From contig JAZBRI010000008.1 in assembly GCA_036874045.1 (NCBI GenBank), forward strand, positions 10,183,001 through 10,247,000: 64,000 nucleotides of DNA, written 5' to 3'. Of this stretch, positions 839 to 64,000 are shown piece after piece (position 1 is the first letter of the stretch; every line of letters begins with the position of its first letter). Origin of the DNA: Cymodocea nodosa (lineage: Eukaryota > Streptophyta > Magnoliopsida > Alismatales > Cymodoceaceae). The position numbers and the translations under genes were made by a program. The notes under the pieces are model-generated. The model was not told the origin of the DNA and made no database searches. It was given only the letters and a program-made list of their open reading frames with translations.

Positions 839-1917
839 TTTCTTTTATATTTCTTTAGTAGTAACTGCTTCTGCTTGAATGGTCGATTGGATTTCTTTCA
901 TTCATATCAACAGCGATGCTTTCTTCTCCCTACGCGATACGTGCAAACGTGGTTTTTTCTCTTCCAACTGTCTGTTCCTGCAACCGCTATAGTGGCATAT
1001 TAGAAAATATAAAGAAATAAGCTGCTAACATAACGTGTTGCCTTAGTGTGTATTCATGTAACTCAACGCGTATAGTTATGCTAACTTAACGAGTTAAACA
1101 TGTGCATCTCACGTGATATACTAAAGCATTTAAATTCAACACGTTCATAAATTTAACTATCTGATGCTCAAGTGCATTTCGGATACTTATAAACTTAACT
1201 ATCCGATGCTCAGATACATTTCGGATAGTTACAAATAACTCACTGATATATAACTTAAGTAAATCTACTAGATCTCGACACGTGTCAGCAACAGTTTAAT
1301 CATAAAATAACATTTCGGAGAGTAACAGGTCTAACTATCCGATGCTTAGATGCATTTCGGATAGTTATAGCTAACTCATCGAAAATCCACTTAAGTCACT
1401 TTACCAGAACATGACACATGTCCTCAGCTATTTTATAAATAAAAAGAGATTTCGAAGAGTTATAGGGATAACTATCCGATGCCCAGCTACAATTTCAGAT
1501 AGTTATAGATAACTCACCAAAAGTTCACTTAAGTCATGCATTATGGTTTCAACACGTGTACTTCAGGAAATAATAAAATATTCTCTCAAAACATAACTGT
1601 TCGGCAATTTAAACATAACTATCTGATACATGTTCGATCTATTAAACATAACTGTCCGAATATGTTCGGTATGTTAAACATAACTGTCTGTATTATCAGA
1701 AAATTCGGATACTTAAGAATTTCACTACCTGCAACTTACCGACAGTTCAAAAATGTACTAAATTAACATTAATTCCCACAAATTAAGTAGATTCTTCAAT
1801 TAAAGCATATAACAGTGCAATTATAACATAATGGCTTAATTCTTATATGATAAGTTAAATATTATGCAATTAACCATCATTTAACCATTAATAATATGCA
1901 CTTTTTCATTCTAAACA
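839..1917 (-). mobile_element. Copia-type LTR of composite A
   Basis: Read on the minus strand it begins TGTTTAGAATG next to a purine-rich tract and ends near 839. It matches the LTR of composite B (49963-50787) at both ends, for example TTTCATTCATATCAA near 896 and the shared stretch containing CACGTGATATACTAAAGC. It is also related to the LTR at 12653-14430. It contains a dense array of TTTCGGATAGTTA and ACTCAACG motifs between about 1060 and 1700. The lower boundary is estimated from the alignment with copy B. No target duplication was found. Confidence 0.65.
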
Positions 1918-1937
1918 CTTCCGCCATACCTAAATTT
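1918..1937 (-). other. Polypurine tract of composite A LTR
   Basis: The minus strand reads AAATTTAGGTATGGCGGAAG immediately before the LTR start TGTTTAGAATG. The same site in composite B has an uninterrupted GGGGG, so the A copy is mutated. A polypurine tract here marks the priming site of plus-strand DNA synthesis just upstream of the 3' LTR. Confidence 0.6.
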
Positions 1938-3242
1938 TGCTAGTCCCTTAGCTAACTAAGATCTAATTAATTGGTCTTTCTAAAAGTGCTAGAATTAATT
2001 CTTCTCCTTTCTTTTCTCTTCTGTTTAGCATAAAAAAATATTTTGTATGTTTCAGTAATCAACCTGCAAATATACTTAGAATATATGTAAATTACATACA
2101 AAGTATATCATCATCATATAAGTGTTAATTATATTATCGTTTGTTCTTCTTTTCATCATCTATCATCCTGAATTTTTCAATAAGATTTCTAGAAGAAATT
2201 TCAACAACATACGAATCAAAGTATAATCCAATTCAATTTGATTAAGACAAGTAGAATAAAGAATTGTATCTCCATTAAACAACTTCAAAAGTCAATTCTA
2301 GATTCATATTACAGCAATTCTAGATAACAGAAAATATACTCGATTCATAAGATATCTGTATTTCACAAAACACTTGTATCTTTTCAGAACAGTATATGTA
2401 TATTTTTTTCTCTCTTTTTTTTCGTACTTTAAAAGTTAATTTGACAAGCTTGAATCATACAAGAGCTTTCTAATGTACCCATGTAACGAGCTTTCAATCA
2501 ACAATCCCAGATCTGATCAGGATTTTAGGTTGCCAGATTTCAAGAGTCCTTTTTCAGGTCAACAATCCTTACATACCTATCTGCTCAAGTACAAAAGGCT
2601 CGTGATCAAACAAGTCAATAAACTCTCAAAATTTTCTCTCTTTTTTTTTTTTTTTTTAAAACACTACAACACAAAACAAAACATTAATCACATACTATAT
2701 ATGTACGTATTTCATTAATACAGATGCAGTAAAACACCAATCTCATATAGTCCTACTTCTATCATTTACTTAAAATATGAATCCATAACAATAAGCTCAT
2801 ACTTTTTCTGTAGTTTAATAAGATCTACACATAAATCATTCTACAAGTTCAATCAGTCAAATTATTTGTATCTTTAATCATATGTGTTTCATTTAATCTA
2901 GAATTCACATTTCAGCTCCTTCAGGACTTCAGATAATTTATTGATTTTTTCATTAATCATTCTGATTTCATTTTAAAATCGTGAAACTGTTAAACTCATG
3001 AAATTCAGAAAAAAAAAAACATAAGATACTATATCTATATTTGCATAAATAGTAAATTCTATAGCATCTTATATAGCCTTCTAAATATAGCATTCAAGTA
3101 GTTACAGTTTATATAAATTTTACAGTCTCAATTATCGAATAGTTACAGCAAGTTCATAAAAATTTTTAATTTCCACAACTTTACAGTACCATTTTAATTT
3201 CTTTAATTAACAAACTTACATGGGTGTTACTTCAATTAACTT
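1938..3242 (-). mobile_element. 3' non-coding tail, copia-like
   Basis: There is no coding potential. Read on the minus strand this stretch aligns with the tail of composite B (about 50808-52035) and with the region after RNase H in the plus-strand copia element (about 62740-63560). An example is the block around 2480-2620, which matches 63000-63230 almost base for base (TTGATCACGAGCCTTTTGTACTTG type sequence). It is therefore the 3' untranslated tail of a SIRE-like copia element, although here it follows gypsy gag and an F-box gene. Confidence 0.6.
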
Positions 3243-3290
3243 CCCCCCATACCTACATTTTGCATTGTCCTCAATGTAAAAGATTTAATA
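3243..3290 (-). other. Gypsy-type polypurine motif
   Basis: On the minus strand the sequence reads TTGAGGACAATGC followed by GGTATGGGGGGAAG. A motif of this form is common just upstream of the 3' LTR in plant Ty3/gypsy elements. The same motif is present in composite B at 52035-52085. No gypsy LTR follows. The sequence passes directly into the copia-like tail, so this is probably the join between two element types. Confidence 0.55.
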
Positions 3291-3694
3291 ATAAGTACAG
3301 TAATTGTAGCAGGCATGAATACAATTTTGTTTGATTTAAAATTCAAGATGAGTAATTGGTTACATACCTTGTTTTATTTGTATCTCCTTCTGCATATTCC
3401 GATTTTTTTTTTGAAAAACTTTTCATTTATAGATAAACGCAGAATATATAACAAAATAGCATTTAACAGATATTGATAAATTAGTGTCTTGTGTGGAACC
3501 TAGGCTCCTATGCCTCTGGTGGCTCACATGCATTCCAATTGGTTTCTTAGAACAGATACCAACAAACTAGATTGATATTTTGTTTTTTTTTTTTTTATAC
3601 AATAAAATGAAAACTATATTTTTTTTTCTTTTCTCTTTTTTTTTCTAAAAATAAATGCAAAATACACACAACATTAAACACACAAAATCACAGC

Positions 3695-4831
3695 TTAAGA
3701 ACATGATTGAAAAGTAGAAACAAATGGAATAAACGTGTCAGTCCAAGCAAACTTTTTAGGCATAATTCTTCTTGCTATTAATTTTGTTTTCATGCAGTTC
3801 TTGCTCCTTAATTTGTAAACATGTAACATATTATAAATTCCAAATACAAGTGTATTACCATTAATGATATGAAATGCAGAAAGGGATCCTTTTTGGTTCC
3901 ATGGTAATGTAGCAGTTTCTATTTCTACATCTATTTCAATATACTCCTCTTCCCACTTCCATTCATTTATGTCTTCCATAATCCATATTTGAAATTTCAT
4001 CAGTTCATCCCACCATCATATCAGACATAAAGTAGGATCATCTTCTTCATTATACCACATTCCTATTTGAATTTTATTAAATTCTATAGATGGTGGTTTA
4101 GCTATTTCACTCGGTATAGGTAATATTGCTATATATTCATCATAACTGTCTATGCTTACTATGTATAAATCAGATCCATATGCTATTGATATCTCTGTGA
4201 CTAGATATATATATCCATCAAGTATGACATGTGTTTGGTTAATTAATGATTTCTGTCCCAGATATATCATAATATTTTCATTCCAAGATCTATTAAGAAA
4301 ATTATACACACTTAAGCGTAAATCTTCACCCTAATTTCCTATAGGTCTCCAATAATATAATTTTTCAGGAGTTGCAGAATTTTTATCAGAAAATATTAAA
4401 GTTGACCCACAATTTATAGTTGGTACTTCAAATCTATTAGGTCTTCCTATATTCCATTCTTCTCCTGTTATAAGATTTCTTATCAAAATATCAGGTAATA
4501 ATAAACTTGCATACCTTGGTCTCATCTTGTATATGATTAATCCTTCATCTATCCCCATAATATGACTCATTCCTTCTAATGCATTGGGTGGAATTCCAGT
4601 AGTTTCTTCCATAGCTAGATATTCATGGGTATTTGAACTACGATTAAATGACCTCCATATGAATCCATCTCTAATCTTAGTCATTTTTGCAGCTTGTAGT
4701 CCTTGAAAATATTTTTCTTCAATACAATCTTTAATTTCCTTTGATACACAACACAGCCTGTACAGATCTTTAGCTGACAAGTTACTTAGTATTTTCCTTA
4801 GTGCATCCATTGGTAATTGCATCAATTCCAT
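3695..4831 (-). pseudogene. F-box protein pseudogene inside a retroelement
   Basis: One reading frame of 379 codons starts at an ATG at 4831 and ends with a stop at 3695. Two in-frame stops interrupt it: TAG at codon 167 (4333-4331) and TGA at codon 272 (4018-4016). The first ~45 residues form an F-box, with LPMDALRKILSNLSAKDLYR followed by LCCVSK. This motif binds SKP1 in SCF ubiquitin ligases, so the parent protein would have been a substrate adaptor. The rest has Trp- and Tyr-rich spaced segments typical of an F-box-associated beta-propeller region, but I cannot name a subfamily. It lies in the same orientation as, and just downstream of, a retrotransposon gag, and a good splice acceptor (TGTTTTACAG) sits 10 bases before the ATG. 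Upstream, GTATGT near 4996 could be a donor. Composite B lacks this segment together with the end of gag. Gene capture by the element is inferred. Confidence 0.75.
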
Positions 4832-5019
4832 TTGTCGATTCTGTAAAACATAAACAAAAATTTAGCAGAGATAAAAATTAACCTAACTACTGCACACCCT
4901 CGTGGAGTTAAGGCATAACTCAACGAACTTAGTTCGTTAAGTTAAAAATTAACTCTACGATACTATTAACTAAAAAAAAGACATATATACATACAGATAG
5001 TTGCTTTAGATATGCTACT

Positions 5020-6295
5020 TCATTCAGCTACCCTCCTAGAAGAGGTATCAATTTCATTAACCGTTCTATTGATAGGATTAGGTATAGCTTGTATTGGCAA
5101 TCCTCTAGTAGGTCTAACTTCCATTGGTTCCTTCTGTCTAAGTGATATATTTCTATTCTGATTTTGATTTGCAGCATTTCCAAATATAAATTCTAAACGA
5201 TTGTTTACTTGTTGGATTATCTTTTCTAATTTCTCTATTCTAGCTCCTTATTCAATTAATACTTCATAACTTATGTTCTTCTCATTTATATTTTCTCCTC
5301 CCTGGAAATTGTTGTTTCTCCAAGATAAATTCGGGTGATTTCTCCAATTAGGATTATAAGAATTTCCCAAGTTATCTCTCTTGTTTCTAGCATAAATAAT
5401 ATCTAAGTCATTTATGTTTGCATTCTTTTCTACTAGCTTTTGATTTAATGATAACTCTTCTATTTTCTTTGTTAATTCATTTAATTTCACCACAAGCATA
5501 GTATTTGAATCTATTTCATGCATTCCTCTTGGCAATATTTTTTTATCTGCAATAGCTTTAGCCGAATTTTCCTACTATGTAATTCTTTTTACAAAGTTTT
5601 CTAAATATGCCCATGCTTCTTCACTACATAATTTTAAAAATCCATTTTGACAAGTAGATTCTAATAAAGATTTCATTGAAACATCTATGCCTTCATAAAT
5701 TATACCTATTAATTGTGCTTTACTCATTGCATGATGTGGACATTGAGTCAGTAAATCTTTAAATCTTTCAAAATATTTCCAGAATGATTCACCTTGTTTT
5801 TGGCTACACATTAAGATTTCTTTCTTCTTTTTAATCGTTTAATGTGTTGGATAATATTTTTCTAGAAAAATAGAGCAAAATTCAGTCCATGTAGAAATTC
5901 AATCAAGTGATAGAGTATATAACCATCTCTTAGCTGTCTTTTAAAGAAAAAGGGATATATCTAAGTTTAATAGCATCTATACTCATGTTTGGCATTTTCA
6001 TCATTTGACAAACTTTGTTAAATTCTCTAAGGAAATAATAGGCATCCTCTCTTTCTAATCCATGAAAATGTGGCAATTAACTAATATAATTAGATTTCAG
6101 TTCAAACCTATCTCCCTTAAAGTTTGGCAATCGAATACATGAAAGTTCATCAACTAATTCAGGATACAGAATTTCTCCTAATGGTTTTTCTACTGGAGCA
6201 GCCATCTCTACGTTCTCTTTTAAAGAAAGGTTAGCTACACCCCAAAGAATTTCGTTAAAGTTCAGTTCAGAAAACTTTTCAGTACTCTTCTGCAA
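5020..6295 (-). pseudogene. gag: Retrotransposon gag, composite A (broken)
   Basis: This is a Gag remnant, the structural protein that packages retrotransposon RNA. The N-terminal part (6295-6077) has RLPNFKGDRFELKSNYIS, then a frameshift and stops. The central part (5811-5575) has the hallmark GESFWKYFERFKDLLTQCPH and IIYEGIDVSMKSLLES. The C-terminal part runs through further stops at 5575-5536 and 5250 to a final TGA at 5020, including EKLEKIIQQVNN, a short coiled coil. The last two parts share one frame. No CCHC zinc knuckle is visible. The start follows an apparent 100-nt leader intron (6390-6291, GT-AG), which is also present in composite B. It lies downstream of the integrase and ORF3, the reverse of normal gypsy order. 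Confidence 0.75.
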
Positions 6296-7309
6296 TGAAA
6301 ATTCCTAGGTAGGTGTTCTTACTAATCGTTTAGTGCTTAGAGAACGGGTTCATGTGCTCATAAATAAATAGCAGAAGATTAATTATATACCAGTTTGAAG
6401 CTTTCCATTCAATAAATATTTGTTGTCGAATGAAGTTGAATCAACTACTTCTCCTTCCAATTCCTCCAATGCATTCTCCTTTCTTTTAAAAGTGTTGGTA
6501 ACTTGTAAATAACATTCTGTTTTATATATATACTACACATTCATAAAGTGAATAAATCTCGTTGCAAGAACGTGTCTTGCAACGTGCATCGTGGTTCTTG
6601 TTTTTATGGGTACGTGTACCACTACTAATTTCAAATTTTGGTAACCGCTAAACCGACAAAGTTTTGTTCATGGTTAAAAGAATAACTGTTCTGCTTAATC
6701 CATGAACTAACCTCGTTGAGTTACAGATTACTCAATGGAATACAATCGGTTACTATTGGTAACTCCACGGACTAACTTCATTGAGTTATAGATAACTCAA
6801 TGGAGTGACCTTATATTATATTACTGACCTCGTGGAGTTACGGTTAACTCAACGAACTTACTTCGTTGAGTTAACACTTGGCAACTTCTAAGTTTTACTC
6901 TCGTAAGTTCCTCTCAATTCTTTTTTTTTCTTTTTCATTCTGCTAACTGAAATAAAGTTAAATCTATGTCATTAATGCATCATTCTAATTAAAATATGTT
7001 TAAATCTGAACATTTTATAAAGATTTAACTTGCAAGTCATTTTATGTTATGCAGAATTTACATTTTACCTTGCAACATGCAGAAATTTTTAAGCATTTAT
7101 CTTGTCATTCAGTAAATTGTAAATTTGTTACATATTCATTCGTAAAGTTCCACAAATTACATAATATTCAATAAATTCCATTCATTTCACATACAAAACA
7201 TGTATGAAAATTGCATCTGAAAAATTATATTCATTAATATGAATCAATTACATTACAAGTACATCATACAATTTCATACAATTTTACACAAGTATATGAA
7301 CAATACAAT
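6296..7309 (-). promoter_or_regulatory. LTR-like promoter region before gag, copy A
   Basis: There is no coding sequence. On the minus strand a TATA box (TATATATATAAAAC, about 6522-6535) lies ~140 bases upstream of an apparent leader intron (6390-6291) and gag, so this looks like the promoter of the gag transcript. It carries ACTCAACGA/TCGTTGAGT palindromes between 6715 and 6874. One is a perfect 13-bp inverted repeat with a 5-base loop (arms 6844-6856 and 6862-6874). The same layout, TATA included, occurs in composite B at 52930-53965. It may be the LTR that separates ORF3 from gag, but it does not resemble the LTR at 839-1917. Confidence 0.55.
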
Positions 7310-9505: not shown

Positions 9506-10018
9506 CGTGGAGTTACACAACAACATGTAATCGCTCTTATTTCTACTATTTTAGATTCTAATTGATTTGCTGGATAATGACCCCAAAACCTTAGGTTTTA
9601 GTTTAAATAAGCCCTAAGTTTAGGTGGGTAATCGAGTCATTTCCCGAACCAACTATTACTATTTTATCTACGGTCTTAGCTATAGTATTCCGTTGAGTTA
9701 CAGTTAACTCAATAGAATAAGCTCGTTGACTAACTCAAGACTCAATAGACTAAGCTCGTTGAGTTAAGCGTAACTCAACGAACTCCCCGTACAAACATAT
9801 ATAATAATAAAAATACTACAGATAATAGTTTTTCTATTTTTTTTACCGGTTTAACTTATACGATGTTTCGGTTAGACCTAAAAAATTTTTTTTCCGGTTG
9901 AATAAATACTATATTTCGATAGAACCAACATTTTTTTTCTAAAAATTAATATACATATTTATATGTTTCGGTCATATCGATGGATCCGGTCGATTGAACC
10001 GTAACGATTTTTATATAT

Positions 10019-12637: not shown

Positions 12638-12650
12638 GGCTCTGATACCA
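12638..12650 (-). other. Primer-binding site (tRNA-Met type)
   Basis: The minus strand reads TGGTATCAGAGCC two bases after the end of the LTR (12653). This is the usual primer-binding site of plant copia elements, complementary to the 3' end of initiator methionine tRNA. It fixes the orientation of the LTR as a 5' LTR. Confidence 0.85.
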
Positions 12651-12652
12651 CT

Positions 12653-14430
12653 TGTAGAATCGAATGACTACACAAGAGAGGGGTGAATTATGTTTTTCAA
12701 CATTTTCAATCATAATTGAAACTTCAAAATTAAAAACAAGTCAATACACTATTTTCATCAAATCATTTTATTTAAGGTTTCAATTACAATATACAATTCA
12801 ATTCTCCTCAAAAATTGTAGATGCAATTATATAACGATATCATGTTCCATCTAATCAATTTTATAACTACAAATAGAGAAAACTAATTTACGCAATTTAA
12901 AACATTTCTCCTTGTTTGAGATTTTTCTTCTTCTTCTGCAATTTTTCAGTGACAAATATTTGACTTCTCTGCTTCACTAAATTTGCTTTTTCTTGATTCT
13001 TCAAATTTTTAGTGACATATATCTGACTTTCTCTTCTTCATTGAATTTTCTTCTATCTAAGTGCTTTTCCCTAGAGAGGTGTTTTGATCCCTGAAAATAT
13101 ATTTCATTTGGTGTACAAGGATAATTGATCAACGAGAATTCTATGCCTTTTATACTATATCTTCATTTCATGCATATCTTCCACATTTAACCACAATCAA
13201 TTTCCACTCTTCACATCTTCTCTTTTTCCTTCATCAAAATATACATATTTCGACCTACGTTTTCCTCTCGAATTTTCTTTAATCATCAATCCTGGATCTT
13301 TGAAAAATTTCTTGTAAAATAAACTTTCTCATCCAAAAATTTCCATCAAGTGTAATAACAAGTCGTTGTGTTAATGTTAACTAAACGAATAAAATAAGTA
13401 AATTTATAACTTAACGTATCTAACTTAATGAGTTTGTCATGTGCCAAATCACGTGATATGTACCATAGCTAACTTAACGAATTAAGTCTGTGGTGTTATA
13501 CTAACTCAACAAACCAGCTTCATGGTATTACTATTAACTCAACGAACTAGTAAAAATGTCTTTCGGAAGGTTAAATGCTAACTCACCGAAAAGTGTTTAA
13601 GTATCGAATAGTTGAGTTTTTAAGTATTTGAAATATATTTTTATCATAAAACTAGTGAGACACATGTCGTGACCTGGAAACGTGACTTAAGTTATCTTTT
13701 AGAAGGTTAAATGCTAACTATCTGAAATGAGTTTTAGTTTCGGATAGTTACGATTGTAAGTCTTCGAAAAACTCCTAATAACTCACCAATCCAGTAATAA
13801 ATAAATGTTTTTACAATAAGGTATTTACCACGTGCAATAATAATAACTTTAAGTTTATAACACTAACCTAACACATTACTTTAGTGTTCAATATAACAAC
13901 TCAACGCATTTAGTTATGTTAACTTAACAAGTTAAATATGTGCAATTCATGTGCTACAATATAATATTTGTAAATTTTAATTTCACCACATGTATAAGAC
14001 TAACTTAACGAGTTCGTTTCTTCATTTTAACCTTTTGTTTACTAACTTAACGAGTTCTCACGTGACTTATTTTAACCTTTAAGCCTATAACTCAATGAAT
14101 TCTCACATGACCTTTATACAAATAAAGCACTAAACTCAATGAGTTGTCTTAATGTGTACTGTACATGATACAAAAAATATAACTTTAGAACATATCATGC
14201 TTTACAAAAAACACACATTAACTTAATGTTTAGTTAAATGAAAAGTTAGTATAACTTAACGACTAGTTATTTAACTTAACATAATTTTAGTTCTATTACA
14301 GACAAGTATTTATATTAGTAAATTTTTTTTGTATTAATTGATATTCTTAATTTACTTTTATAAGCAATAGTAATTGAGTAAATATGATTATATTCGTTTA
14401 GCACACATCATCAAAACAAAATACTCAACA
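12653..14430 (-). mobile_element. 5' LTR of a copia element (1778 bp)
   Basis: On the minus strand it starts TGTTGAGTATTTTG (14430) and ends CGATTCTACA (12653), directly before the primer-binding site. The interior carries many motif copies, such as CTAACTTAACGAG, TTTCGGAAGGTTA and CACGTG. It is related to the LTR at 839-1917 (compare 13860-13990 with 1010-1140). It interrupts the first codons of another copia gag (14431-14464), so it is younger than that element. Confidence 0.75.
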
Positions 14431-14560: not shown

Positions 14561-14562
14561 AT

Positions 14563-15794
14563 TGTAGGATCGTAGTATCACAAGAGGGAAGCTGAATTGT
14601 GTCTTTAGCAATTAAAAATTACTAGTGGATAAAACAAGAGCATAAAAAACACTCATAAATAAAATTCTAAGCTTTATAGACTTTAAAGAAAGAATTTACA
14701 ATCTCTCTTTAGCTTAATTCCCTTCTTATCAATTCTAATACAATAAAGTCTGATATACAATTCAAAGAGAAAATAAAATCACTATTCTAAGCTAATTTTG
14801 AATTGTATAAAACTTGATTTTTATGCATGTAGTACATTTTCCTTCTTTTTACTCAGCTTTTGTATCTCTTCTTCTCCAATTGTTGAATTTCCATACTTTT
14901 TGCGTTGCAGCTCCTTTTCTGAAATTACTTGGAATTCTGAATTTCTTCTGATGTTGGAGAATTTTTCTAGATTTGAATACTTAGATTTAGTGTTTGAGAT
15001 TTAGATTGAAATATAATTGAATATTCAGACTTGGTATTTGAGATTAGGATGATCATAATGCAACTCGTACCTTCTATTTATAGTAGTTGAACTATGACTT
15101 CACGTTCAATATGTTCATCTACTTAATCCATAATCTATAATCTCACGTACTAATTTCAAATTCAAATTATCCACAATTTTCACTATCTTTTTGAATTTCT
15201 ACTATGTCCACTCTTTATTTTGAATGTTCACTTCTTATTTTGAATTTGCACGATTTTATATCGTAGATCTACCAAAACTTTATCTTCTTGAAGATTTGTA
15301 GAATATCTTTTAAGTCACTGCTTTAGTCAAATACTTATTCTTTAAGTTTTGTAAAACTCGAATACTTATTTGTAACCTTTGAGTTCTTACACCTACAAAA
15401 TATGTGACTAAACAAGAAAACTTATCTGTTCGTTAGTCATTTTATAAAACTCAAATAGTTATCCATCTATGCGTATAAAAACTCGAACAGTTATGTAACT
15501 CTTTGATTTTTCATTACTGAACGTATATGAAAAATACGTGAAAACTTAAAACATTAAAAATACATGTGTAGATAACTTAATTATATGAGTTTTTAACATA
15601 ACTCTTCGACTAAATCAAAACGTTAACTATTCGAAAGTTTAACTATCCGAAAATTTTAACTATCTAAAATTTTGAATGAAACTTTTTGATAACTTGATAA
15701 CATTTAATTTGTGACTATTATATTTAAAAATTTTTATTTAAATTTATTTATAAACTTTAATAAAATATTCATCGTAAAAACTAAATTTCTAATC
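14563..15794 (-). mobile_element. Older copia 5' LTR, same family as 47634-48814
   Basis: On the plus strand it begins TGTAGGATCGTAGTATCAC and aligns along its whole length with the solo LTR at 47634-48814, including TGTATCTCTTCTTCTCCA and the CTATCCGAAA array near 15600-15680. The far end, by homology CCTAACA, is degenerate here (CTAATC). The adjacent decayed primer-binding site makes it a 5' LTR. It lies about 860 bp upstream of the PFK start codon and reads away from PFK. Confidence 0.7.
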
Positions 15795-24906: not shown

Positions 24907-25638
24907 TAATAATTTCATGAAACTTTTGCATAGTTTATTTCTTGCAGCTAGAAGAATACTAACAAATATTATTACCTATGCATGTCGGCGAGCCACTATT
25001 CCTGGTTTACTGCGTTCAAAATTTCTTTTTTGTCGTTACAATAACAAATAGGCAGGGACGTATGGTGGAAACTAATAGGAGTAGACGTAGAGCTTTCCGA
25101 GCAAACACTCTTATCTTATCTTTTTATTTCATCCATTCATCACCTCTAATAATTTCTGTTGTTTGCGGTGGAACTTATTTTGTATCAGTCGTCTGAACTT
25201 ATTTAGAAGGTAACATTTGTAAAATATGTATTTTGTTAATAAGAGTTAGAAGTTCATATCATGTTTATATGATTAATGGAGATTAATGAGAAGAGGAAAA
25301 TTGAAAAAACAAGAAGCAAGATCTTTTGCAAGAACTAAGGTTGTTGAAGATTTAGGATTTTGTTAATATGACTCAATATTTTCTGTTGTGATCAATATGA
25401 CTCAATTTGCATTAATGAGGTCCTACATTATTTGGATTTTGTTTTACAAGGAGGGACTATGTTGGCCTTGCATTAGCAACAACTTATTTAAGTTATTCAT
25501 TCTTATCCATTTTTAATGCATATTGTCATTGAATGAATAATAACTTATTTAATTTTTATGTTAATGATTGATGTTGTCATTATCATCCATATTTCAATGA
25601 TGTGTTTTTCATTTATATATATGTTTTGCAAATTAGAT
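24907..25638. other. Left flank of Harbinger element 1
   Basis: No gene. AT-rich sequence with a small palindrome near 25485 (AACTTATTTAAGTT). The terminal inverted repeat expected for the left end of PIF/Harbinger element 1 (GGGGGTGTTTGTGCAC) is not found here or further upstream. Confidence 0.4.
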
Positions 25639-46617: not shown

Positions 46618-47633
46618 ATAATGAGGTTGCCCTAGAACTTATTAGATGGAAATCAAGGTTATGGTTTATAAGAATGATACCATGCGAAGATTCAACAAAG
46701 GGAAGAACAAGAGAAAGAACAAAATTAAGAATCGACAGCAGTAGCACAACAATTGTGACCCTCTGATCAACCACGACCAATAGAGAAAGTTGTATTAGTA
46801 GGATGGGGATTCAAGGAGGAGAAAAAAGAGTTCAAAGAGTTAGTTAAACTATATAAAGACCAAGGTGCTGATGAAGCCTTGGTGAGAGCTAAAGCACATG
46901 TTATTTTTGATGGAATCTAGAGAAAAAGGATTGAAGAAAGAGTTAAAGTGAAATATAAAGTTAAATTAGAATAATATCAAGAAGTAGTTGGAATACTAGT
47001 TGCAAAAGAATCTGAGGCTAGTCCTTTGAGACTAGTAAATATCAAGGAAGAAGAGCTAGAATCTATGGCTCGAGGGTTGGAAGAGCCCATTTTTATTGAC
47101 TTAATATTAGAAGAAGAGGAAGAAGAATAGGCACAATTAATTAGAAGAAGAAAAGAGAAAGAAATAGTGCTTGAGGCTTAGGAAATAAAATTTGAGCCTA
47201 TAGCATTTACAGTAAGGCATAAAGAGCCCATTTTTGTAGATTTATTATCTGAAGAAGAAGAAGAAGAGCTAGAGCAACAGTAAAGAGGAGAAGAAAAATA
47301 GGTTGAAATTAGTTTGCAGTCTAAAGAAACTAAAAAAAAAGTAAGGGCAGAATCTACTATGCCCAAAACTCCATCCCAATCTACAAGTGATTTAGAAAAG
47401 ACAATAACAATGTAGATTGGTTATGAGGAGGAAGAAGAGAGAGAAGAAGTTGAACAAAAAGTATAGAAAGGGAAGAAAATGATTCGATAGATTTCATTGA
47501 AGATGATGAAACTCTTCAACAATTACTAAAGAAATTACAAGATAAGAGTGTGGAAAGTTTTGCAGGCTCTCCACTACAAACAAGAATTGAAAGTTAGGAA
47601 TCTCCGAAAGATTTTCAATAACAACAACAAGTT

Positions 47634-48814
47634 TGTAGGATCGTTTGTATCACAAGAGGGGAGGTGAATTGTGTCTTTAGTAATTAAATACTAATGGATA
47701 AAACAAGAGCACAAAACACTCGTAAATGAAATTCTATTCTTTATTTTAAAAATAAAATTTACAATATTTTTTCAGCTCAATTCCCTTCTTGACGGTTTTG
47801 ATACAGAAATGTTCGATATACAATTCAAATAGAAAAACAAAGCTCTTATTCAAAACTAATTTTGAATTGTATAAAACCTGATCTTTATGCACACATCTTC
47901 TTTCTTTCTCTTTGTTCAGCTTCTGTATCTCTTCTTCTCCAGTTGTTGAATTTCCAGACTTCTTACGTTTGCAACTCCTTTTCTGAAATTGCTTGGAATT
48001 TCGAACTTCTTCTGATGTTGGAGAACTTTTCAGAATATGAATATTCAAACTTAACTTTTCAGTTAGGGATCTAGATTGAATATTCAGACTTAATTTTCGA
48101 GATTGGGATCCCCTATTGTAATGTAGCTCGTACTCTCTATTTGTAGTCGAACTCTGTTGTCTTTCATGTTCAGCATGTTCATCCACTTAATCCATAATCC
48201 ACGTACTAATTTTCTCTTTAATCCAAATTACTATCTTTTTGAGTTTCCACGATCTCCACTCGTAGATACATCGAAACTTTATCTTCCTCGAGTCTTGTAG
48301 AATATATTCTAAGTCTTCGATTTAGTCGAACACTTATCCTTTAAGTCTTGTAAAAACTTGAACACTTATCCTTTAACTCTTCGAGTTTTTGCACTTGCAA
48401 AACACGTGACTAAACAAAGAAACTTATCTGTTCGTTAGTCCTTTTATAAAACTTGAACAGTTATCTATCTATGCGTATAAAAACTCGAACAGTTATCTAA
48501 CTATTCGATTTTTCATTACCGAACACACATAGAAAACATGTGACAACTTAAAACATTAAAAACACACGTGTAGATAACTTAACTATATGAGTTTTTAATA
48601 TAAAGTATTCGACAAAAGCAAAACGTTAACTATCCGAAAGTTTAACTATCGAAAATCTAACTCTTCGAAAATCTTTAATTTATCCGACATAAAAAATGAA
48701 ACTTTCCGATAATCTGTTAACTATTATACTTAGAGAAATATACTTAGAGAATATTATGTAGACTTATTTAAAAACGTTAATAAAGCATATATCATCAAAA
48801 TTAAATACCTAACA
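47634..48814 (-). mobile_element. Solo LTR in ORF3, target duplication AAGTT
   Basis: 1181 bp, with plus-strand ends TGTAGGATCG and CCTAACA. It is flanked by the perfect 5-bp duplication AAGTT (47629-47633 and 48815-48819). It belongs to the same family as the LTR at 14563-15794 and has the same orientation. The Gln-rich coding sequence of ORF3 continues on both sides. It is a clean product of LTR-LTR recombination. Confidence 0.9.
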
Positions 48815-49962: not shown

Positions 49963-50787
49963 TGTCTTTTATATTTCTTAGTAGTAACTACTTCTACTTC
50001 GATGATCAGTTGAATTTCTTTCATTCATATCAAGGATAGTGATTTCTTCTTCCTTCCACGAGCGATTTCCTGTGTGATACGTGCAATCGTGGTTTTCCTT
50101 CGAATGCCCTATTTCTGTAACCGCTACAGTGACATATTAGAAAATAAATGGTCTGTAGAGTTACAAATAACTCAACAGACTTACTTCGTTGATTTAACTA
50201 TAAAACACGTGTAATAAAGAAATAAGCCGCTAACATAACACGTTACCTTAGTGTGTATTCATGTAACTCAACGTGTACAGTTATGCTAACTTAACGAGTT
50301 AAACATGTGCATCTCACGTGATATACTAAAGCATTTAAATTCAACACATGCATAATTCTATCTTAACAAGTTCAAATATTTTGAACACTTACGAACCTAA
50401 CTATCCGATGCTCAGATGCATTTCAGATAGTTACAGATAACCTTCCGAAAATCCACTTAAGTCATGCATTGTAGTTTCAACACGTGTAATCCAAGAAATA
50501 ATAAAATATTCTTTAAGCATTTAAAACATAACTGTCTGGTACATTAAACATAACTCTCCAAAATAATAGAAAATTTAGATACTTAAGAATTTCACAGCTT
50601 GCAATTTACCGACAGTTAAGAAATGTACTAAATTAACATTAATTCCTTGGAATTATGTAGATTCTTTCATTAAAGCATATAATAGTGCAATTATAACATA
50701 ATGACTTAATTCTCATATGATAAGCTAAATATTATGCAATTAACCATCATTTAACCATTAATATTATGCACTTTTTCATTCTAAACA
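49963..50787 (-). mobile_element. Copia-type LTR of composite B
   Basis: 825 bp with TG...CA ends. On the minus strand it starts TGTTTAGAATG and ends AAATATAAAAGACA. It matches the LTR at 839-1917. An adjacent polypurine tract GTATGGGGGAAG (50788-50807) gives its orientation as a 3' LTR of a minus-strand element. It abuts the 3' end of gypsy copy C tail to tail. Confidence 0.75.
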
Positions 50788-52045
50788 CTTCCCCCATACT
50801 TAAATTTTGTTAGTCCCTTAGGAAACTAAGATCTAACTAATTGGTCTTTCTAAAGTGCTAGATTTAATTCTTCATTTTGCTCTTCTTCAAAATAATAAAT
50901 TATATTACCATATAGATATTCTGTATGCTTCAATAATCTGTTTTAACTTTGTTTTCTTCTCTTCAACTCTTTCAGCATATATGTAAATTACATACAAAAT
51001 ATATCAACATCACATAGGTGTTAATTATATTATCATTTTTTTCTTTTCAGCATTTGTCATCCTGAATTTTCCAATATGATTTCCAGAATAAATTTCAAGT
51101 ACATATAAATCAAAGCACAATCCAATTCAATATGATTAAGACAAGTAGAATAAAGAATTGTATCTCAAATAAACAACTTCAAAAGTCTATTCTAGATTCA
51201 TACTTTAGCAATTTTAGATAACAAAATATATACTCAATTCAGAAGATATCTGTATTTCACAAAACACTTGTATCTTTTCAAAACAGTATATGCATATTTG
51301 TACTTTTAAAAGTTAATTTGACAAGCTTGAATCATACAAGAGCTTTCTAGTGTACCCATGTATTGAGCTTTCAGTCAACAATCCCAGATCTAATCAGGAT
51401 CTTAGGTTGCTAGATTTAAAGAGTCATTTCAAGTGAACAATCCTTACATACCTATCTACTCAAGTACAAAAGGCTCGTGATCAAATAAGTCAATAAACTC
51501 TCAAATATATATATATATTTTAACATAGTATATGTACATATTTCATTAATACAGATGCAATAAAACACCAATATCATATAGTCCTGCTTCTATTATTTAC
51601 TGAAAATATAAATCCATATCAATAAGCTCATACTTTTTTCTATAGTTTAATAAGATTTACACATAAATCATTCTACAAGTTTAATCAATCAAATTAAATG
51701 TATCATTGATCATATGTATTTCCTTTAATCCAAAAAATCAACATTTCAACTCTTTCAGGATTTCAGATAATTTACTAAGTCTCAGTTAAACATTCTGATT
51801 TCTTTTTAAAATCGTGAAATTGTTAAACTCATAAATTTCAGGAAAAACATAAGATACTATATCTAGATTTATATGAGTAGTAAAATTTGTAGCATCTTAT
51901 ATAAGATTCTAAATATAACATTCAAGTAGTTACAGTTCTTAAAAAAAAAATTACAGTCTCAATTATCAATTTCCACAAAACTTTGCAGTACCATTCTAAT
52001 TCCTTTAATTAACAAACTTACATGGCTGTTACTTTAATTACCTCC
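50788..52045 (-). mobile_element. 3' tail of composite B, copia-like
   Basis: Non-coding. It aligns throughout with 1918-3250 of composite A and with 62740-63560 of the plus-strand copia element. It ends at the gypsy-type motif (minus strand GGTATGGGGGGAGG, about 52040). Confidence 0.6.
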
Positions 52046-52459
52046 CCCCCATACCTATTTTTTTTGCATTGTCCTCAATGTAAAAGATTTGACAATAAAT
52101 ACAGTAATTGTAATAGGCATGAATATTGCTTCATTGACTTAGCATCTAACTCAACAAACTTAATTCGTTGAGTTAATGAATAACTCCACGAATTGAGTTT
52201 AAATCTAAATTCAAGATAAGTAATCAATTACATACCTTGTTTCGTTTGTATCTCCTTCTATATATTCAGATTTTTGATTCTGAAAAACTTTTCATTCACA
52301 GATAAAAGCAGAATATATAACAAAATAACATTTAACAGATATTGATAAATTAGTGTCTTGTATGGAACCCAGGCTCCTATGCCTTTGGTGGCTCACAAGC
52401 AAGCTAGTTGGTTTCTCAAAACAGATACCAACAAACTGGATTGATATTTTTGTTTTTGA
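52046..52459 (-). mobile_element. Post-gag region of composite B, deletion point
   Basis: This matches 3250-3594 of composite A, including the phrase around CCTAGGTTCC/GGAACCCAGGCTCC, then jumps at about 52450 to the equivalent of 5820 in A. The 2.2 kb missing in B carries the end of gag and the whole F-box pseudogene in A. Because gag is ancestral, B has suffered the deletion. Confidence 0.65.
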
Positions 52460-52926: not shown

Positions 52927-53970
52927 GTGTTGAATATTCCTAGGTAGGTGTTCTTACTAATCGTTTAGTGCTAGGAGAACAAGTCCATGTGCTCATAAAC
53001 TCTTAACATATAGTAAAATAGTAGAAGATTAATTACATACCAATCTGAAGCTTTCTATTCAGTAAATAGTTGTTGACGGATGAAGTTGAGTCAGTTGCTT
53101 CTCCTTCAGTTCCCCAACGAATTTTCTTTTCTCTCAAAAGTGCTGGTAACTAGTAAATAATATTCTATTCTATATTTATAATGCATGTCTATAAAGTAAA
53201 TAAATCTCGTTGCAAGAACGTATCTTGTGACGTGTAGTGTGGTTCCTATTTTTCTAGGTACGTGTGTCACTTCTAATTTCAAATTTCAGTAACCGCTAAA
53301 CCCACGAAGTTTCGTTCATGGCTAAAAGAATAACCATTTAGCTTAATCCACAAACTAACCTCGTTGAGTTATAGATAACTCAACGGAATAGCTTCAGTTA
53401 CTACTGCTAACTCCACGGACTAACTTCGTTGAGTTATAGATAACTCAACGGAGTGACCTTATATTATATTATTGACCTCGTGGAGTTAAGGTTAGCTCAA
53501 CAGACTTACTTCATTGAGTTAACACTTAGCAATCTCTAAGTTTACTCCTCGTAAATACTTTTCTACTCTCCTGCATTTTTCCAACTTAAATAAAGTTAAA
53601 TACATGTCATTAATGCAGCATTCTAATTAAAACTCATTTAAATCTGAACATTATATAAATATTTAACTTGCAGTTCATTTCATGTTATGCAGAATTTATA
53701 TTTTACTTTGCAACATGCAGATATTTTCAAGCATTAATCAATTATCTTTCATTTAATCCTGTCATTCAACAAATTGTAAATCTTTTAAACAATCTTGCAT
53801 AATGTTCCACAAATTATACAATATTCAATATAGTTCATCCATTTCATCATTCTCAAACACGAATGAAAAATATATCTCAAAAACATATATTCATTAATAT
53901 GAATAATTTACATTACAACTTCATCAGATATTTTTCATACAAATATATACAAGTAGACGAACAATACAAT
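52927..53970 (-). promoter_or_regulatory. LTR-like promoter region before gag, copy B
   Basis: This is the counterpart of 6296-7309. On the minus strand a TATA box (TTATAAATATA, about 53172-53182) precedes the leader intron and gag. TTGAGTTATAGATAACTCAA-type hairpins lie at 53355-53470. No ORF is present. Confidence 0.55.
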
Positions 53971-56214: not shown

Positions 56215-56845
56215 CGTGGACTTATGCAACGGAACGGAGTCGCTCTAACTCTACTATTCTAAGTTCTAAATGATTCTACAGATAATGCCCCCAAACCCTA
56301 AGTTTAATATAAATAAGCCCTAAGTTTAGGTAGGTAATCGGGTCATTTTCCATACAAAACTCTCACTTTCTCATCCGTGGAATTACGGTTAACTCCACGA
56401 ACTAAGTCCGTGGACTTAACTACAGTACTCCATTGAGTTATAGTTAACTCAACGGGGTAACTTCATTAACTAATCATAAACTCAACGGACTTCCTGTAAA
56501 GTTATATTTAATAAAAATACTTAAGATAATAATTTTTCTTCGGTCAAGACCGAAGAATTTCTAGTCTAATTGCTATTACTTTTTCCATATTTTAAAAATT
56601 CTTCAGTCAAACCATTATGTTCCTCGGTTGAACTGAAATTAAATATTTTCTTTCTTTCTTCATTTTTTCTACCAGTTGAACCGATACTTTGCTTTGGTAA
56701 AATCGACATTTTTACTAAATAATATATAGAATTTTTTATGTTTTTATGTTTCGATCAGACCGATGGATCCTGTCAATTGAACTGTAACAATTTTTTTAAA
56801 TAAGTTTTTTTTTTTTTTTCAAGTTATATACTTAGAACTTTCTTA
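56215..56845 (-). promoter_or_regulatory. INT-ORF3 spacer with motif arrays, copy B
   Basis: This non-coding spacer carries a clear hairpin TTCTTCGGTCAAGACCGAAG (56536-56557 region), other CGGT-type motifs to 56780, then TAACTCCACG/GTTGAGTTA palindromes at 56380-56490. The block order is the same as in copies A and C. Confidence 0.45.
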
Positions 56846-59384: not shown

Positions 59385-62300
59385 TAACTAGTACCCCTGC
59401 GGTGTCTTATAAGCCAAATCAAGTCAAAATGGATCATGGACAGTGGAGCATCAAGTCACATGACCGGACAAAAAAGTCTATTACAAAATTTTACAAATAC
59501 CATGAAAGGAAGTGTAACATTTGGAAACAAAAGCAAAGATAAAATTATAGGTATGGGCAATGTTCAAATAACTCCTACTTGTGTTATTTCGAATATACTA
59601 TATGTAGAAAACCTAGGATTTAATTTGCTAAGTGTCATAAAACTAACTGAAAATGTATATTATGTAGTGTTTGAAGATAATGTATGCAAAATAATTGATA
59701 AAAATACAGATGAAATTAAGTTTATTGCTAAAAGAAAAGGTTCTGTATGTATTTTATCTTTACCTTCTAGTGTAGTTGATTTAAATTCATGTTTGCTAGT
59801 TGAAACTAGTGATGCATATCTATGGCATAGAAGGATTGGGCATATAAATATGAGACTATTACATAAACTATCTAGAAAACATTTAGTGAGAGGTTTACCA
59901 AAGATTAAATACTCAAACAACTTTATGTGTGATGCATGTGAGTTAGGTAAACTTCACAAAAACTCTTTTAAATCCAAAATTGATATTTCAAGCAAGAGAG
60001 TCTTAGAACTTATACATATGGATCTATTTGAACCAACAAGAATCATGAGTCTTGGTGGTAAACGGTATGTATTTGTTTTAGTAGATGACTTCTCTAGATA
60101 CACTTGGGTATATTTTCTAGCATCTAAGACAGAAGTTTTTGAAAAATTTAAAATGTTTTGCAATTTTGTTCAAAATGAGCAAAGTGTCTCTATTCAAAAA
60201 CTTAGGTGTGATCATGGAACTGAATTTGATAATGATCAAATGGATAACTATTGTAATGAGCATGGCATTGATCACAGATTTTCTTTTCTAAGAGCACCAT
60301 GTCAAAATGGTGTTGTTGAGAGAAAGAATAGATCACTTCAAGAAATGGCCAGAACTATGTTGAATGAACATAAGTTACCTCAAAATCTTTGGGCTGAAGC
60401 AGTAAATACAGCTTGTTATGTTATTAACAGAAGTCATTTAAGACCTCATGTTAATAAAACTCCTTTTGAAATTATGTTTAATAGGGTTCCAAAAATTTCC
60501 TATATGAAACCATTTGGTTGCAAATGTTTTATTCTTAATACTAAGGATAAAAGGGATAAATTTAAAGCCAAATCGAATGAAGGAATTTTTGTAGGTTACT
60601 CTACTAGAAGTAAAGCCTATAGAGTATATAACAAGACTTCTAGGACTATTGAAGAAACCCTCCATGTAAGCTTCAATGAAAATTCTCTTAGAGAATCTCA
60701 ATCTAAAGCTGATAATGATGATATGATCAATTTTCCAAATGAGTTAGAGATCAATAGAGAGATTGATGATTTATCTGAGAAAATCAAAAATATGAACTTA
60801 AATGATCAAACTAATGATGAAAGTGATGGACTTTCAGATGTTGATGAGAATATTGAGGAAAATCAGAGAAATTGGCGTTATTCTTCATCACATCCCATTA
60901 CTCAAGTCATTGTAATATTAATGAGGGAGTTAAAACTAGAGCTTCAGTAAATTTAAATAGTATGTGTATGTTTGTTTATATGGTGGAAGCAAGGAATATA
61001 CAAGAAGCATTATCTGATGAAAATTGGATAGTGGCAATGCAAGAAGAACTAAATCAATTCATCAGAAATGATGTATGAGAATTAGTCTCTCCACCAGAAA
61101 ATCAGTCCATAATAGGTACAAAGTAGATATTTAGAAACAAAACTAACGAAACTAGTTAAATTATAAGGAATAAAGCTAGATTAGTTGCACAAGGGTATAC
61201 ATAGGAAGAAGGATTAGATTATGATGAAACATTTGCTCCTGTGGCTAGGTTAGAAAGTATTAGAATATTATTGGCCTATACTTGTTATATGGATTTTAAA
61301 TTATATCAAATGGATGTAAAGAGTGCATTTCTAAATGGTTTAATTAATGAAGAAGTCTATGTAAAACAACCACCTAGATTTTAAGATATTAAAAATCCTG
61401 ACTTTGTGTATAAATTGAAGAAAGCCTTATATGGTTTGAAGCAAGCACCTAGATCATGGTATGAAAGATTGTCTACTTTTTTAATAGAAAAAGACTATAT
61501 CATGGGAAAAGTGGATCATACTCTATTTATTAAGGGAGATGGTAAAGATCAGATTGTTGTTCAAATATACGTGGATGATATAATCTTTGGAGCAACCTCT
61601 GATAAGTTGATAGAAATATTCTCTGAAGAGATGACTAATCAGTTTGAAATGAGTATGATAGGAGAACTTTCATATTTTCTAGGACTTCAAATTAAGCAAA
61701 TGGATAAAGGTATATTTTTAAATCAGGAAAAATATGTAGATGAAATGCTTAAGAAATTTAATTTTAATGATACAAGGATTCGAGGAACTCCTATGAGTAC
61801 TACTTTAAAGTTAGATATTGATGACATAGGAAAATCTATAGATCAAAGAAAATACAGAAGTATGATTGGTTCTTTACTTTATTTGACTGCTAGTAGACTT
61901 GATATTATGTTTGCTGTGTGTGTTTGTGCTAGATTTCAATCTAATCCTAAGGAATCACACTTAATTGCAGTTAAAAGAATATTTAGATATATACGAGGAA
62001 CTAAAAATTTCAGACTGTATTATTCTAAGGATAGTTCAATAGATCTGATAGGATATACTGATGTTGATTATGCAGGATCTAAATCTGATAGAAAGAGTAC
62101 CAGTGGCACATGTCAATTATTGGGAAATAATTTGATGTCATGGTTTAGTAAAAAGCAAAACTGTGTAGCACTTTCTACTACAGAAGCTGAATATGTTGCT
62201 GCTGCATTGTGTTGCACTCAGATTCTGTGGATAAGGCAAACTTTAGAAGATTTTGGATTATCTTATGATACAACTGAGATTTATTGTGACAGTAGTTCTA

Positions 62301-62520
62301 CAATAAATCTTTCCAAAAATTCTGTATTACGTTCAAGAGCAAAGCATATAGAGGTTAGACATCATTTTCTAAGAGATAACGTAATTAAAGGAAAAATTAA
62401 ATTAGAATTTGTGTCTAGTAAAAATTAATTAGCTGATATATTTACAAAACCTCTAGACGAAAATACATTATGCAACATTAGATTAAATTTAGGTATTTGT
62501 AGGCTATGTGATGTGTAAAA
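59385..62520 (+). pseudogene. pol: Ty1/copia pol, SIRE-like, 5'-truncated
   Basis: Polyprotein order is protease, integrase, RT and RNase H, as in copia. Protease has MDSGASSHMTG at 59436. Pre-integrase zinc region has HRRIGHINMRLL and CDACELGK. Integrase core has D in HMDLFEP, D in LRCDHGTEFD and E in NGVVERKNRS. RT has LYGLKQAPRSWYERL and the catalytic YVDDIIFG. RNase H has STTEAEYVAA and CDSSSTINLSKN, ending LADIFTKPL. Gag is absent. A one-base deletion near 60912 shifts the frame, and stops follow at about 61078, 61124, 61201, 61382 and 62428. Several are TGG, CAA or CAG changed to a stop. The C-terminal sequence is typical of the SIRE/Maximus lineage. Confidence 0.9.
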
Positions 62521-63590
62521 TGCTTACACTCCACATAAAAAGATAAATATTATTGATGATGTTGTTTACCTCATAGATATTATATACTTATTATAAATAT
62601 CTAAAGTAATATCTAAACTGCTGCTTAAGATATTATGTATTTATTGTAAAATCATAGTAGTATCTTATTGATTTTAAGTAGTTTATCAATTTTAATGGTT
62701 TTTATGATTTTAAGTGGAAATGTAAATGAAAAACATTAAATACTTCTGACATTCTGAAATTTTGATTAAATGTTTTCTTTGAATCAAGGAAAATGCATAT
62801 GATCATGCATAAATTTGACTTAATTGATTAAACTTGTAGAATAAGTTATATGTAACTCATCTTAAACTGTTAATCAAAAGTATAAGCTTATTGAAACTGA
62901 TTCATATTCTCAGTACAATCATAGAAGTAAAAATTGTATGAGATTTGTGTTTTATTGCATCTGTATTAATGGAATACATATATACTGTGCTTAAAATGAA
63001 AAGTGCTTACAAAGTAAAAATCTTTGAGAGTTTATTGATCAGTTTGATCACGAGCCTTTTGTACTTGAGCAGATAGGTATGTAAGGATTGTTGTCTTGAA
63101 AAAGGATTCTTTAAATCTGGCAACCTAAGGTCCTAATTAGATCTGGGATTGTTGACTAAAAGCTCATTACACGGGTACATTAGAAAGCTTTTGTATGATT
63201 GAAGCTTTTCAAACTAACTTTTAAAAAAAATTATCAATATTTACTGTTTTGAAAAGAAAAAGTTGTTTCATTAATTACAGATATCTTTGAATTGCATATA
63301 GTTTATACCAATATGACTACTGATTTATTGAATCAACATTAGTACTTTTGAAAACGTTTATTTGAGATACATTCTTTTATTCTCCTTGAATTAATCGAAT
63401 TGAGTTCAAAGTTGTGTTTTGATTCATATACAGTAGGAATTGATTCTGGAAATCATTTTTGATGATGTCAGGATAACAGAAGTCTCTAAAAAGAAAATGT
63501 AAAAGTATAGTTATACTTAACATCTATTGTCACTACAAGTATATTTTGTATTTTGATTGAATATATTTGAAGTATATTTGTAGGGGGAGC
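62521..63590 (+). mobile_element. Copia 3' tail and polypurine tract
   Basis: Non-coding. It ends in the polypurine tract AGGGGGAGC (63582-63590). From about 62740 it aligns with the tails of composites A and B. Confidence 0.65.
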
Positions 63591-64000
63591 ATTAAAAATG
63601 TCAAAAACAGATTAATATAATTTAAAATACAAATCTTAGTTAATCTGAATTAATGTCCTCTTAAAATCTTGATGAAATAATTTAAAAAGACAAATAAACT
63701 ATTTTAGATTCAAAGGACAAAATGTTCAAATAGTTTACAATGTTCTCAAGATAATGTTAAGTTTAGCATGTGTGTTGTTTTCGGAACGTTTCAGTTGTAA
63801 GCATCCGAAAATTGTTTTAAGTGTACTAACTAGACATTATGTTAGATAAGGTAACGTGTAAAACTACCTCTAGACAGCGTTTTACTCGTTAGGTTAGTTA
63901 ACTCAACGAGTTATACTTAAATATTTCGGGTACTTTGATTGAATAAACTTTATTCAACATTTATTTAATTTCTAAACCTGACTTCTCTTCACGCTGAGTT
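63591..64000 (+). mobile_element. Probable start of copia 3' LTR
   Basis: This follows the polypurine tract. The exact TG start is unclear (an ATTAAAAATGTC sequence). It contains TTTCGGAACG, GCATCCGAAA and GTTAACTCAACGAGTTA (63897-63913) motifs as in the other LTRs of the window. It is cut by the window end. Confidence 0.5.

Follow-up and report, generated by a model that had tools for sequence, protein, structure and literature searches.

The 64,000-bp stretch of Cymodocea nodosa contig JAZBRI010000008.1 analyzed here (the window) is largely a stack of nested retroelements, including copies of a Ty3/gypsy family with alpha long terminal repeats (LTRs) and of a copia family with beta LTRs. 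An initial annotation had described three families of short palindromic motifs (types i, ii and iii) recurring in the non-coding parts of elements of both superfamilies. These recurrences are real: counting both strands, the window contains 15 exact copies of ACTCAACGA, eight of TTTCGGATAGTTA and nine of CTTCGGTC, against means of 0.15, 0.02 and 0.27 in 100 dinucleotide-preserving shuffles, and the frequency expected from base composition is thus far exceeded. The regions listed for types i and ii do hold sites, some of them degenerate. The division into three families has to be revised, however, as types i and ii differ at three bases only and reduce to a single half-site, TAACT-NNN-CGA (TAACTNNNCGA), while type iii is a different and mainly local motif. 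Arrays of this half-site are found in both copia and gypsy elements, as had been proposed, and are probably binding sites for a dimerizing protein.

The half-site is strongly enriched. There are 57 perfect copies in the window, compared with a mean of 1.21 and a maximum of five in 100 shuffles, with CAA (14 sites), ATC (12), TAA (7), CCA (6) and CTT (5) the most frequent spacers among others. When sites matching at least seven of the eight fixed positions are included, the count rises to 160, compared with 33 to 54 across ten shuffles. Divergent pairs are mostly spaced by 15 to 17 bp, with the inverted form AGTTA-N4-TAACT corresponding to 15 bp and also occurring at 16 and 17 bp, and convergent pairs are mostly spaced by 18 or 25 bp, so that arrays repeat about every 33 or 42 bp. 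None of the 57 perfect sites falls within the 20,272 bases of the window marked by eye as coding from open reading frames (ORFs), Pfam and BLAST, the site at 9505 lying 5 bp outside the mark of an env-like ORF. Searches of the window returned nothing from Rfam at gathering scores and nothing from a tRNA scan, and viral contigs gave no match to two palindrome patterns.

To place these counts in the 374.6-Mb genome, 19 stretches of 10 kb at round positions (190 kb; L-numbers below) were sampled. They contain 153 copies of TAACTNNNCGA, distributed over 13 stretches at 0.805 per kb, compared with a mean of 3.7 in 20 shuffles and six occurrences of the reversed control pattern; the sampled density extrapolates to about 300,000 copies genome-wide. 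The main pair spacings are those of the window. A strict 22-base palindromic form, TAACTCAACGA-N7-TCGTTGAGTTA, has 1361 sites in the genome, against zero for its reversed control. In window and sample together, 197 of 210 perfect half-sites lie inside arrays. A single mismatch is present in 298 array sites; it alters the TAA part in 12 of them and the CGA part in 210. Since the motif is dispersed across the genome, the local conversion invoked in the initial annotation is not needed to explain it.

The alpha-LTR family is assigned to gypsy by its domain order, in which reverse transcriptase (RT) and RNase H precede integrase (L010). It is abundant: a genome search gave 4631 first-look candidates, of which 150 were scored, all with at least 92% identity. 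L010 reads alpha LTR, RT, integrase, array and env-like ORF, and copies A (in the window), L014, L018 and L019 read env-like ORF, array, gag-like ORF, F-box ORF, linker and alpha LTR. The half-site is present in the LTR and also before the env-like, gag-like and F-box ORFs. In three of these last four copies, the exception being L018, the gag-like and F-box ORFs are separated by an array of at least four half-sites. In copy A, the array in the U3 region of the alpha LTR (1059-1742, -) has 23 half-sites at the seven-of-eight threshold, nine of them perfect and five of these nine with ATC as spacer, and a TATA-like ATATAAAAGA, read by eye, lies at about 850-841 (-). Further arrays of the copy precede the F-box ORF (4900-4960, -; four perfect half-sites), the gag-like ORF (6713-6873, -; six half-sites, four perfect) and the env-like ORF (9690-9785, -; type i), with diverged type iii sites directly after the integrase ORF (9840-9990, -).

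The other gypsy copies of the window vary on this plan. Copy B does not have the stretch holding most of gag and F-box. Its alpha LTR carries seven half-sites, two of them perfect, between conserved anchors (50147-50620, -), its gag-like ORF is preceded by seven, three of them perfect (53361-53521, -), and a type i array with type iii sites lies between integrase and env-like ORF (56374-56780, -). In the linker of copy B there is also a clean 64-bp cassette of two palindromes (52126-52191, -) that has no equivalent at the corresponding position of copy A. Copy C comprises integrase, arrays and env-like ORF only, the intervening region (44345-44900, +) holding diverged type iii sites followed by a type i array. 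There are also an alpha-LTR-like fragment with four half-sites of types ii and i, two of them perfect (28879-28968, +), and an alpha-LTR fragment in which type i boxes occupy a position that is type ii in copies A and B (38214-38443, +; the 38-kb copy).

Two accessory ORFs of the gypsy family deserve mention. The F-box ORF lies between the gag-like ORF and the 3' linker in the window (3690-4830, -), L014, L018 and L019, amounting to four copies in 254 kb. It matches the Pfam F-box family at E-values of 3e-9 and 6e-9, and at L014:5705-6796 it is an open frame of 363 amino acids, for which a protein search found no homologue at E<=0.001. A search with a piece of the env-like ORF likewise found none at that threshold, and a scan of accessory ORF pieces found no DNA-binding Pfam family above the cut-off. 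Some viral F-box proteins act against silencing. The gag capsid-like ORF (window 5020-6215, -; L014, L018 and L019) is downstream of the env-like ORF in all four copies where it was found. In L010, the only copy visible from LTR to protease, no upstream gag capsid match was obtained in 2930-5520 (three pieces by tblastn at E<=1e-5; Pfam at E<=0.01). The gag-like ORF is possibly a relocated gag.

The beta-LTR family is assigned to copia, as integrase precedes RT, and belongs to a Sirevirus-type lineage, four Sirevirus signatures being present according to definitions taken from parts of PMC2829016. A 16-bp junction of 5' LTR and primer-binding site, CA-A(T/G)TGG-TATCAGAGC, marks the ends of beta LTRs in the window (12654, -), L006, L011 and L016, and a junction of this type also occurs at a different LTR end in L013. 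In the window it reads CA-AGTGG-TATCAGAGC (12639-12654, -). The polypurine tract (PPT) AGGGGGAG-AT-TG stands at beta-type LTR starts in L012, L016 and L017, all with a second PPT octamer 205-306 bp upstream, and the octamer occurs at four further places (L004, L005, L008 and L015). An inverted repeat flanks the terminal PPT, with TCATCATCAAAA before it in three loci and TTTTGATGATG within the window beta LTR (by eye). This LTR (about 12655-14430) has a U3 array of 20 half-sites, eight of them perfect (13363-14269, -), and a TATA-like word at about 13154-13145.

A second set of copia arrays lies outside the LTR. L012 reads RT, linker, PPT, array (2901-3016; five half-sites, none perfect), env-like ORF, two PPTs and beta-type LTR start. 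The copia element at 59388-64000 of the window is close to it (92% amino acid identity in RT, 96% nucleotide identity in the linker), and by this comparison its four half-sites at 63886-63913 (+), one of them perfect, lie in the pre-env linker. An assignment of 63590-64000 as an LTR was rejected on the same comparison. The gamma and delta LTRs carry arrays as well: a gamma LTR at about 14562-15792 (array 15358-15650, -; seven half-sites, four perfect), a gamma solo LTR at 47633-48812 (48310-48709, -; 11 and five) and a delta solo LTR at about 45325-46610 (45456-45973, +; 17 and five; TATA-like word at about 46145-46153), the solo LTRs being without a domain that assigns their superfamily. Not all copia elements participate, as distant copia sequences in L008 and L009 (24-34% amino acid identity) have no perfect half-site. 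In L015, distant copia sequence lies beside arrays, one of which overlaps an alpha LTR and the other of which, at 2962-3121 (five half-sites), is unassigned.

The arrays have a recurrent position. For six arrays of the window, those of the alpha, beta, delta and both gamma LTRs and the pre-gag array, a TATA-like box (by eye) follows about 165-275 bp downstream of the array end. The pre-gag region makes the strongest case: all five aligned gypsy copies have a TATA-like run of differing letters there, followed by a GT donor at a fixed place, and four of the five have an AG acceptor (by eye); in copy A, the TATA-like run is at about 6530-6521 (-) and a possible leader intron precedes an ATG at about 6204. 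On sequence grounds, this region resembles an internal promoter whose leader is spliced. After the pre-env array there is a weak TATA-like word only (about 9610-9602), and no clear TATA-like word was seen by eye for the pre-F-box array.

Array size differs between copies. Between conserved anchors, there are 7-24 half-sites in 312-750 bp of the alpha LTR (11 copies) and 12-20 in 677-950 bp of the beta LTR (seven copies). Each family has a dialect of the spacer: ATC accounts for 27 of 60 perfect alpha sites, and TAA or CAA for 42 of 49 perfect beta sites. The ratio of observed to expected CpG is 1.16 in arrays, where GC content is only 0.319, compared with 0.50 in the whole sample at equal GC. 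The CG of the half-site provides 363 of 597 array CpGs, and 115 of the 298 one-mismatch sites are the two CpG transitions, which fits decay by methylation in silent copies. Although GC is low, this enrichment bears some resemblance to the CpG islands reported for Sirevirus RM boxes in PMC2829016.

Type iii is a separate palindrome, CGGTC-N-GACCG, that mostly forms one tandem array. Seven of its nine exact copies lie in this array, which repeats AACTTCGGTC-N-GACCGAAGTT with a 68-bp period (29025-29291, +), and the other two are at 56538 and 56548. At 9840-9990 and 44345-44690, also listed in the initial annotation, there is no exact copy and only diverged versions were found. The type iii half-site GACCGAA is moderately enriched in the 19 sampled stretches (18 copies; mean 6.5 and maximum 11 in 20 shuffles), but not in the window once the 68-bp array is removed (three copies; window shuffle mean 2.5). 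A CGG-CCG core is present in types ii and iii and missing in type i.

Several parts are common to the two superfamilies. In the Sirevirus-type copia element, a non-coding linker runs to the PPT AGGGGGAG at 63582 (62745-63584, +). This linker recurs over about 0.8 kb, at 71-78% nucleotide identity, in six loci next to alpha LTRs or within gypsy copies (A, B, L013, L014, L018 and L019), and in five of the six it ends at the Sirevirus PPT. The env-like ORFs of gypsy and copia are homologous (28-39% amino acid identity, E-values down to 3e-31), and in L012 and L017 such ORFs lie before Sirevirus PPTs, a third env-like homologue, of unclear context, being present in L020. Because linker and env-like ORF are found in both, the sequences support exchange of these parts between copia and gypsy, which agrees with the module exchange suggested earlier; for the boxes themselves, we infer exchange. 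As a separate observation, a core of about 150 bp of the linker (62745-63584; 2063-2884; 51014-51767) looks, by eye, more conserved than its surroundings.

Common descent of the array-bearing regions was examined with 15 units in sense orientation (alpha, beta, gamma and delta LTRs, pre-env linker, the stretches at 28.9 and 37.4 kb of the window, and gypsy pre-env, pre-gag and pre-F-box units) in which half-sites had been masked. No cross-family match was found at E<1e-3, although this search has limited sensitivity, as it also missed the related pre-env units of copies A and C and the relation between the fragment at 28.9 kb and the alpha LTR. Matches were within families only: among alpha LTRs and the 38-kb copy, between gamma LTRs and between pre-gag units. 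Descent from a single LTR ancestor, which the initial annotation named as grounds for rejecting its reading, thus finds no match in its favor, but the result is no proof against it.

The closest described system is the RM box of Sireviruses, which contradicts the earlier claim that no counterpart had been described. In the parts of Bousios et al. (2010, BMC Genomics 11:89, PMC2829016) used here, RM boxes are palindromic and are described for 13 Sireviruses, where they precede the TATA box within the LTR and also the env gene; the classic copia elements studied do not have them, and the boxes listed include CGGTCTGACCG, CGGTCAGACCG and TTTTCGGACWTRTCCGAAAA. The motifs of C. nodosa share with them shortness, many copies, a position upstream of TATA in the LTR and again before an env-like gene (L012 and gypsy copies), and, in part, a dyad form and local CpG richness. 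The eight or more copies upstream of TATA that characterize RM boxes are found by counting half-sites (12-20 per beta LTR, 7-24 per alpha LTR), not palindromes. A type iii copy (29169-29189) contains the Osr8 box CGGTCAGACCG exactly and differs from the Osr10 box at the center base, and type ii, TTTCGG...CCGAAA, resembles the Osr9 box. In contrast to RM boxes as described in these parts, the main motif here is a half-site with a variable NNN, type i has no CGG-CCG core, sites of the Sirevirus LTR have mostly one orientation, and arrays also precede gag-like and F-box ORFs. RM boxes are reported as a Sirevirus-restricted feature, whereas the half-site is also present in a gypsy family, and this sharing is absent from those parts of the RM-box description.

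Other precedents are more distant. The U3 regions of the Tnt1 superfamily also change faster than coding parts and evolve modularly, but belong to one Solanaceae copia superfamily, and the terms motif, repeats, palindrom and inverted are missing from the text of that study (PMC1838419). A maize palindrome of Copia elements and Helitrons, CACCGGAC-NNN-GTCCGGTG, is likewise common to unrelated transposable element groups in one genome; it has another sequence and is reported, in the part of PMC10760457 consulted, as predicted hairpins tied to small RNAs. In the open-access literature, judged mostly from titles and the starts of abstracts, we found neither a half-site common to Sirevirus and gypsy elements nor arrays preceding gag-like and F-box ORFs, and searches with motif sequence words gave, as judged by title, no retroelement work.

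We consider it probable that the arrays are binding sites for a dimerizing, sequence-specific DNA-binding protein, positioned upstream of promoters; shared regulatory sites, proposed in the initial annotation, remain the likeliest meaning of the motifs, and that annotation's interpretation is partly supported overall. The half-site, of the RM-box kind, would be arrayed upstream of likely core promoters in Sirevirus copia and gypsy elements and before internal ORFs. A dimerizing regulator, encoded by the host or by an element, would bind these arrays, and its binding would raise transcription, hold the CpG-rich array open, or both. The arrays would expand and shrink by tandem duplication, and recombination or template switching would carry modules across superfamilies. 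Binding of a protein, function as promoters, one regulator for both superfamilies and tandem duplication as the process are what we infer from sequence patterns, which suggest that unrelated retrotransposons respond to the same DNA-binding regulator and have exchanged regulatory modules. More speculatively, one regulator, possibly element-encoded, may drive a genome-wide regulon of competing retroelements. Sirevirus copia and a gypsy family whose gag-like ORF is displaced and which has captured an F-box gene would then have come to carry the 11-bp half-site, in LTRs and before accessory genes, by convergence or exchange, and would be co-activated or co-shielded from silencing.

If the half-site is shared across superfamilies in this way, a single host or element protein would set the activity of much of the mobile DNA, and regulatory modules would travel between unrelated elements. 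A half-site this short, abundant and sharply defined permits a direct search for its regulator. The so far undefined function of Sirevirus RM boxes also becomes testable, as gypsy shares the half-site and not the palindrome.

Several observations weigh against binding sites upstream of promoters. The arrangement of half-sites is inconstant, alternating in the gypsy LTR and mostly antisense in the Sirevirus LTR. The NNN bases of paired arms are more alike than when arms are re-paired over all arrays (identity 0.560 vs 0.384), a result that a pairing constraint would also give, and two palindromes, one pre-gag (copy A vs copy B) and one type iii (copy B vs copy C), have changed in both arms between copies (by eye), which fits either pairing or a rule acting on each half-site. 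TATA boxes were read by eye, and such words are common in AT-rich DNA. Site counts are not independent, as the copies are related. Single-linkage clustering of the arrays together with 500 bp of flank placed 40 of the 50 in one group, although nested and neighboring modules would give the same grouping. Finally, a mutational process of tandem repetition could maintain part of the pattern.

It is improbable that the palindromes serve as RNA or DNA hairpins, for packaging, translation or as a source of small RNAs, with arms kept for pairing. Hairpins do exist: the example cited in the initial annotation is confirmed, with perfectly complementary 14-bp arms (6843-6856 and 6862-6875) and a 5-nt loop. 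In RNA-folding predictions, three type i stretches (z-scores of -2.9, -6.1 and -7.9) and one type iii stretch (-7.7) fold more strongly than shuffles, and maize Sirevirus palindromes are reported as small-RNA hotspots in PMC5311732 and PMC10760457. The arm identity over all arrays and the two-arm changes given above also favor pairing. Two type ii stretches, however, fold little better than shuffles (-1.2 and -1.5; two coding controls, -0.7 and -1.0). In addition, a pairing constraint would predict matching NNN in both arms, and the match is no better than on re-pairing within arrays (0.560 vs 0.554, P 0.40; 38 arrays with 106 divergent pairs, many of the arrays having few pairs and the power being limited), which argues against hairpins as the shared feature. 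A version of this test with 80 pairs, weak ones included, gave 0.529 vs 0.352 after re-pairing over all (0 of 5000), 0.722 vs 0.735 (P 0.78) for the 24 type i pairs, and 0.446 vs 0.374 (P 0.019) for the other 56. An inverted partner is present for 117 of 164 half-sites of the gypsy alpha LTR (11% at random), but for only 38 of 109 in the Sirevirus beta LTR (10% at random), where 90 of 109 are antisense to the LTR. The common denominator is the half-site, not the palindrome, and with mostly one-way Sirevirus sites, no closer arm matching than within arrays and weak type ii folds, hairpins or RNA structures are not supported as the common feature.

The main rival to promoter-linked binding sites for a regulator is that the arrays are targets of an anti-silencing, demethylating protein similar to VANC, perhaps element-encoded, rather than classical enhancers, which appears unlikely from the comparison. 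VANDAL elements are DNA transposons. The VANC targets of Arabidopsis VANDAL elements are, in the parts of PMC5735166 and PMC10398659 used here, short motifs in same-orientation tandem arrays in non-coding transposon parts, which expand, contract and co-evolve. The present arrays are similarly non-coding, CpG-bearing, variable in size between copies and mostly one-way in the Sirevirus LTR, and the elements encode env-like and F-box ORFs of unassigned function. VANC targets are, in those same parts, rare outside their own family and have a known binding protein, whereas the motif here is common to retroelements of two superfamilies; moreover, the ORFs are only putative DNA binders, and a location before promoters would suit plain enhancers equally. 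Neutral tandem duplication and homogenization, spread by transposition with no present function, would account for the many tandem arrays of variable copy number in an abundant gypsy element. We regard it as improbable. The same fixed bases of the half-site recur across families that show no match to one another in their masked flanks, the locations before promoters and ORFs recur as well, and 13 of the 210 perfect sites lie outside arrays, where shuffles give 4.9 on average for all sites together. Least credible by far is that the motifs are chance repeats in AT-rich DNA or descend from one LTR ancestor. The shuffle counts of window and sample and the ratio of 1361 sites to zero for the strict form argue against chance. 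LTRs diverge fast, so the failed nucleotide search leaves room for an ancient common origin, as does the joining of arrays by their wide flanks, but the masked units do not match across families and the bearers include both gypsy (RT before integrase) and copia (integrase before RT) elements.

The window also contains features of other kinds. A GC-rich tandem array of CGACCGCTCGAAGCTCGC with an 18/37/55-bp period occupies 24234-24905 in otherwise AT-rich DNA. Two PIF/Harbinger-like regions, 25537-28398 and 33010-35697, carry Myb/SANT-like and DDE_Tnp_4 ORFs, the Myb of the second being detected by tblastn only.

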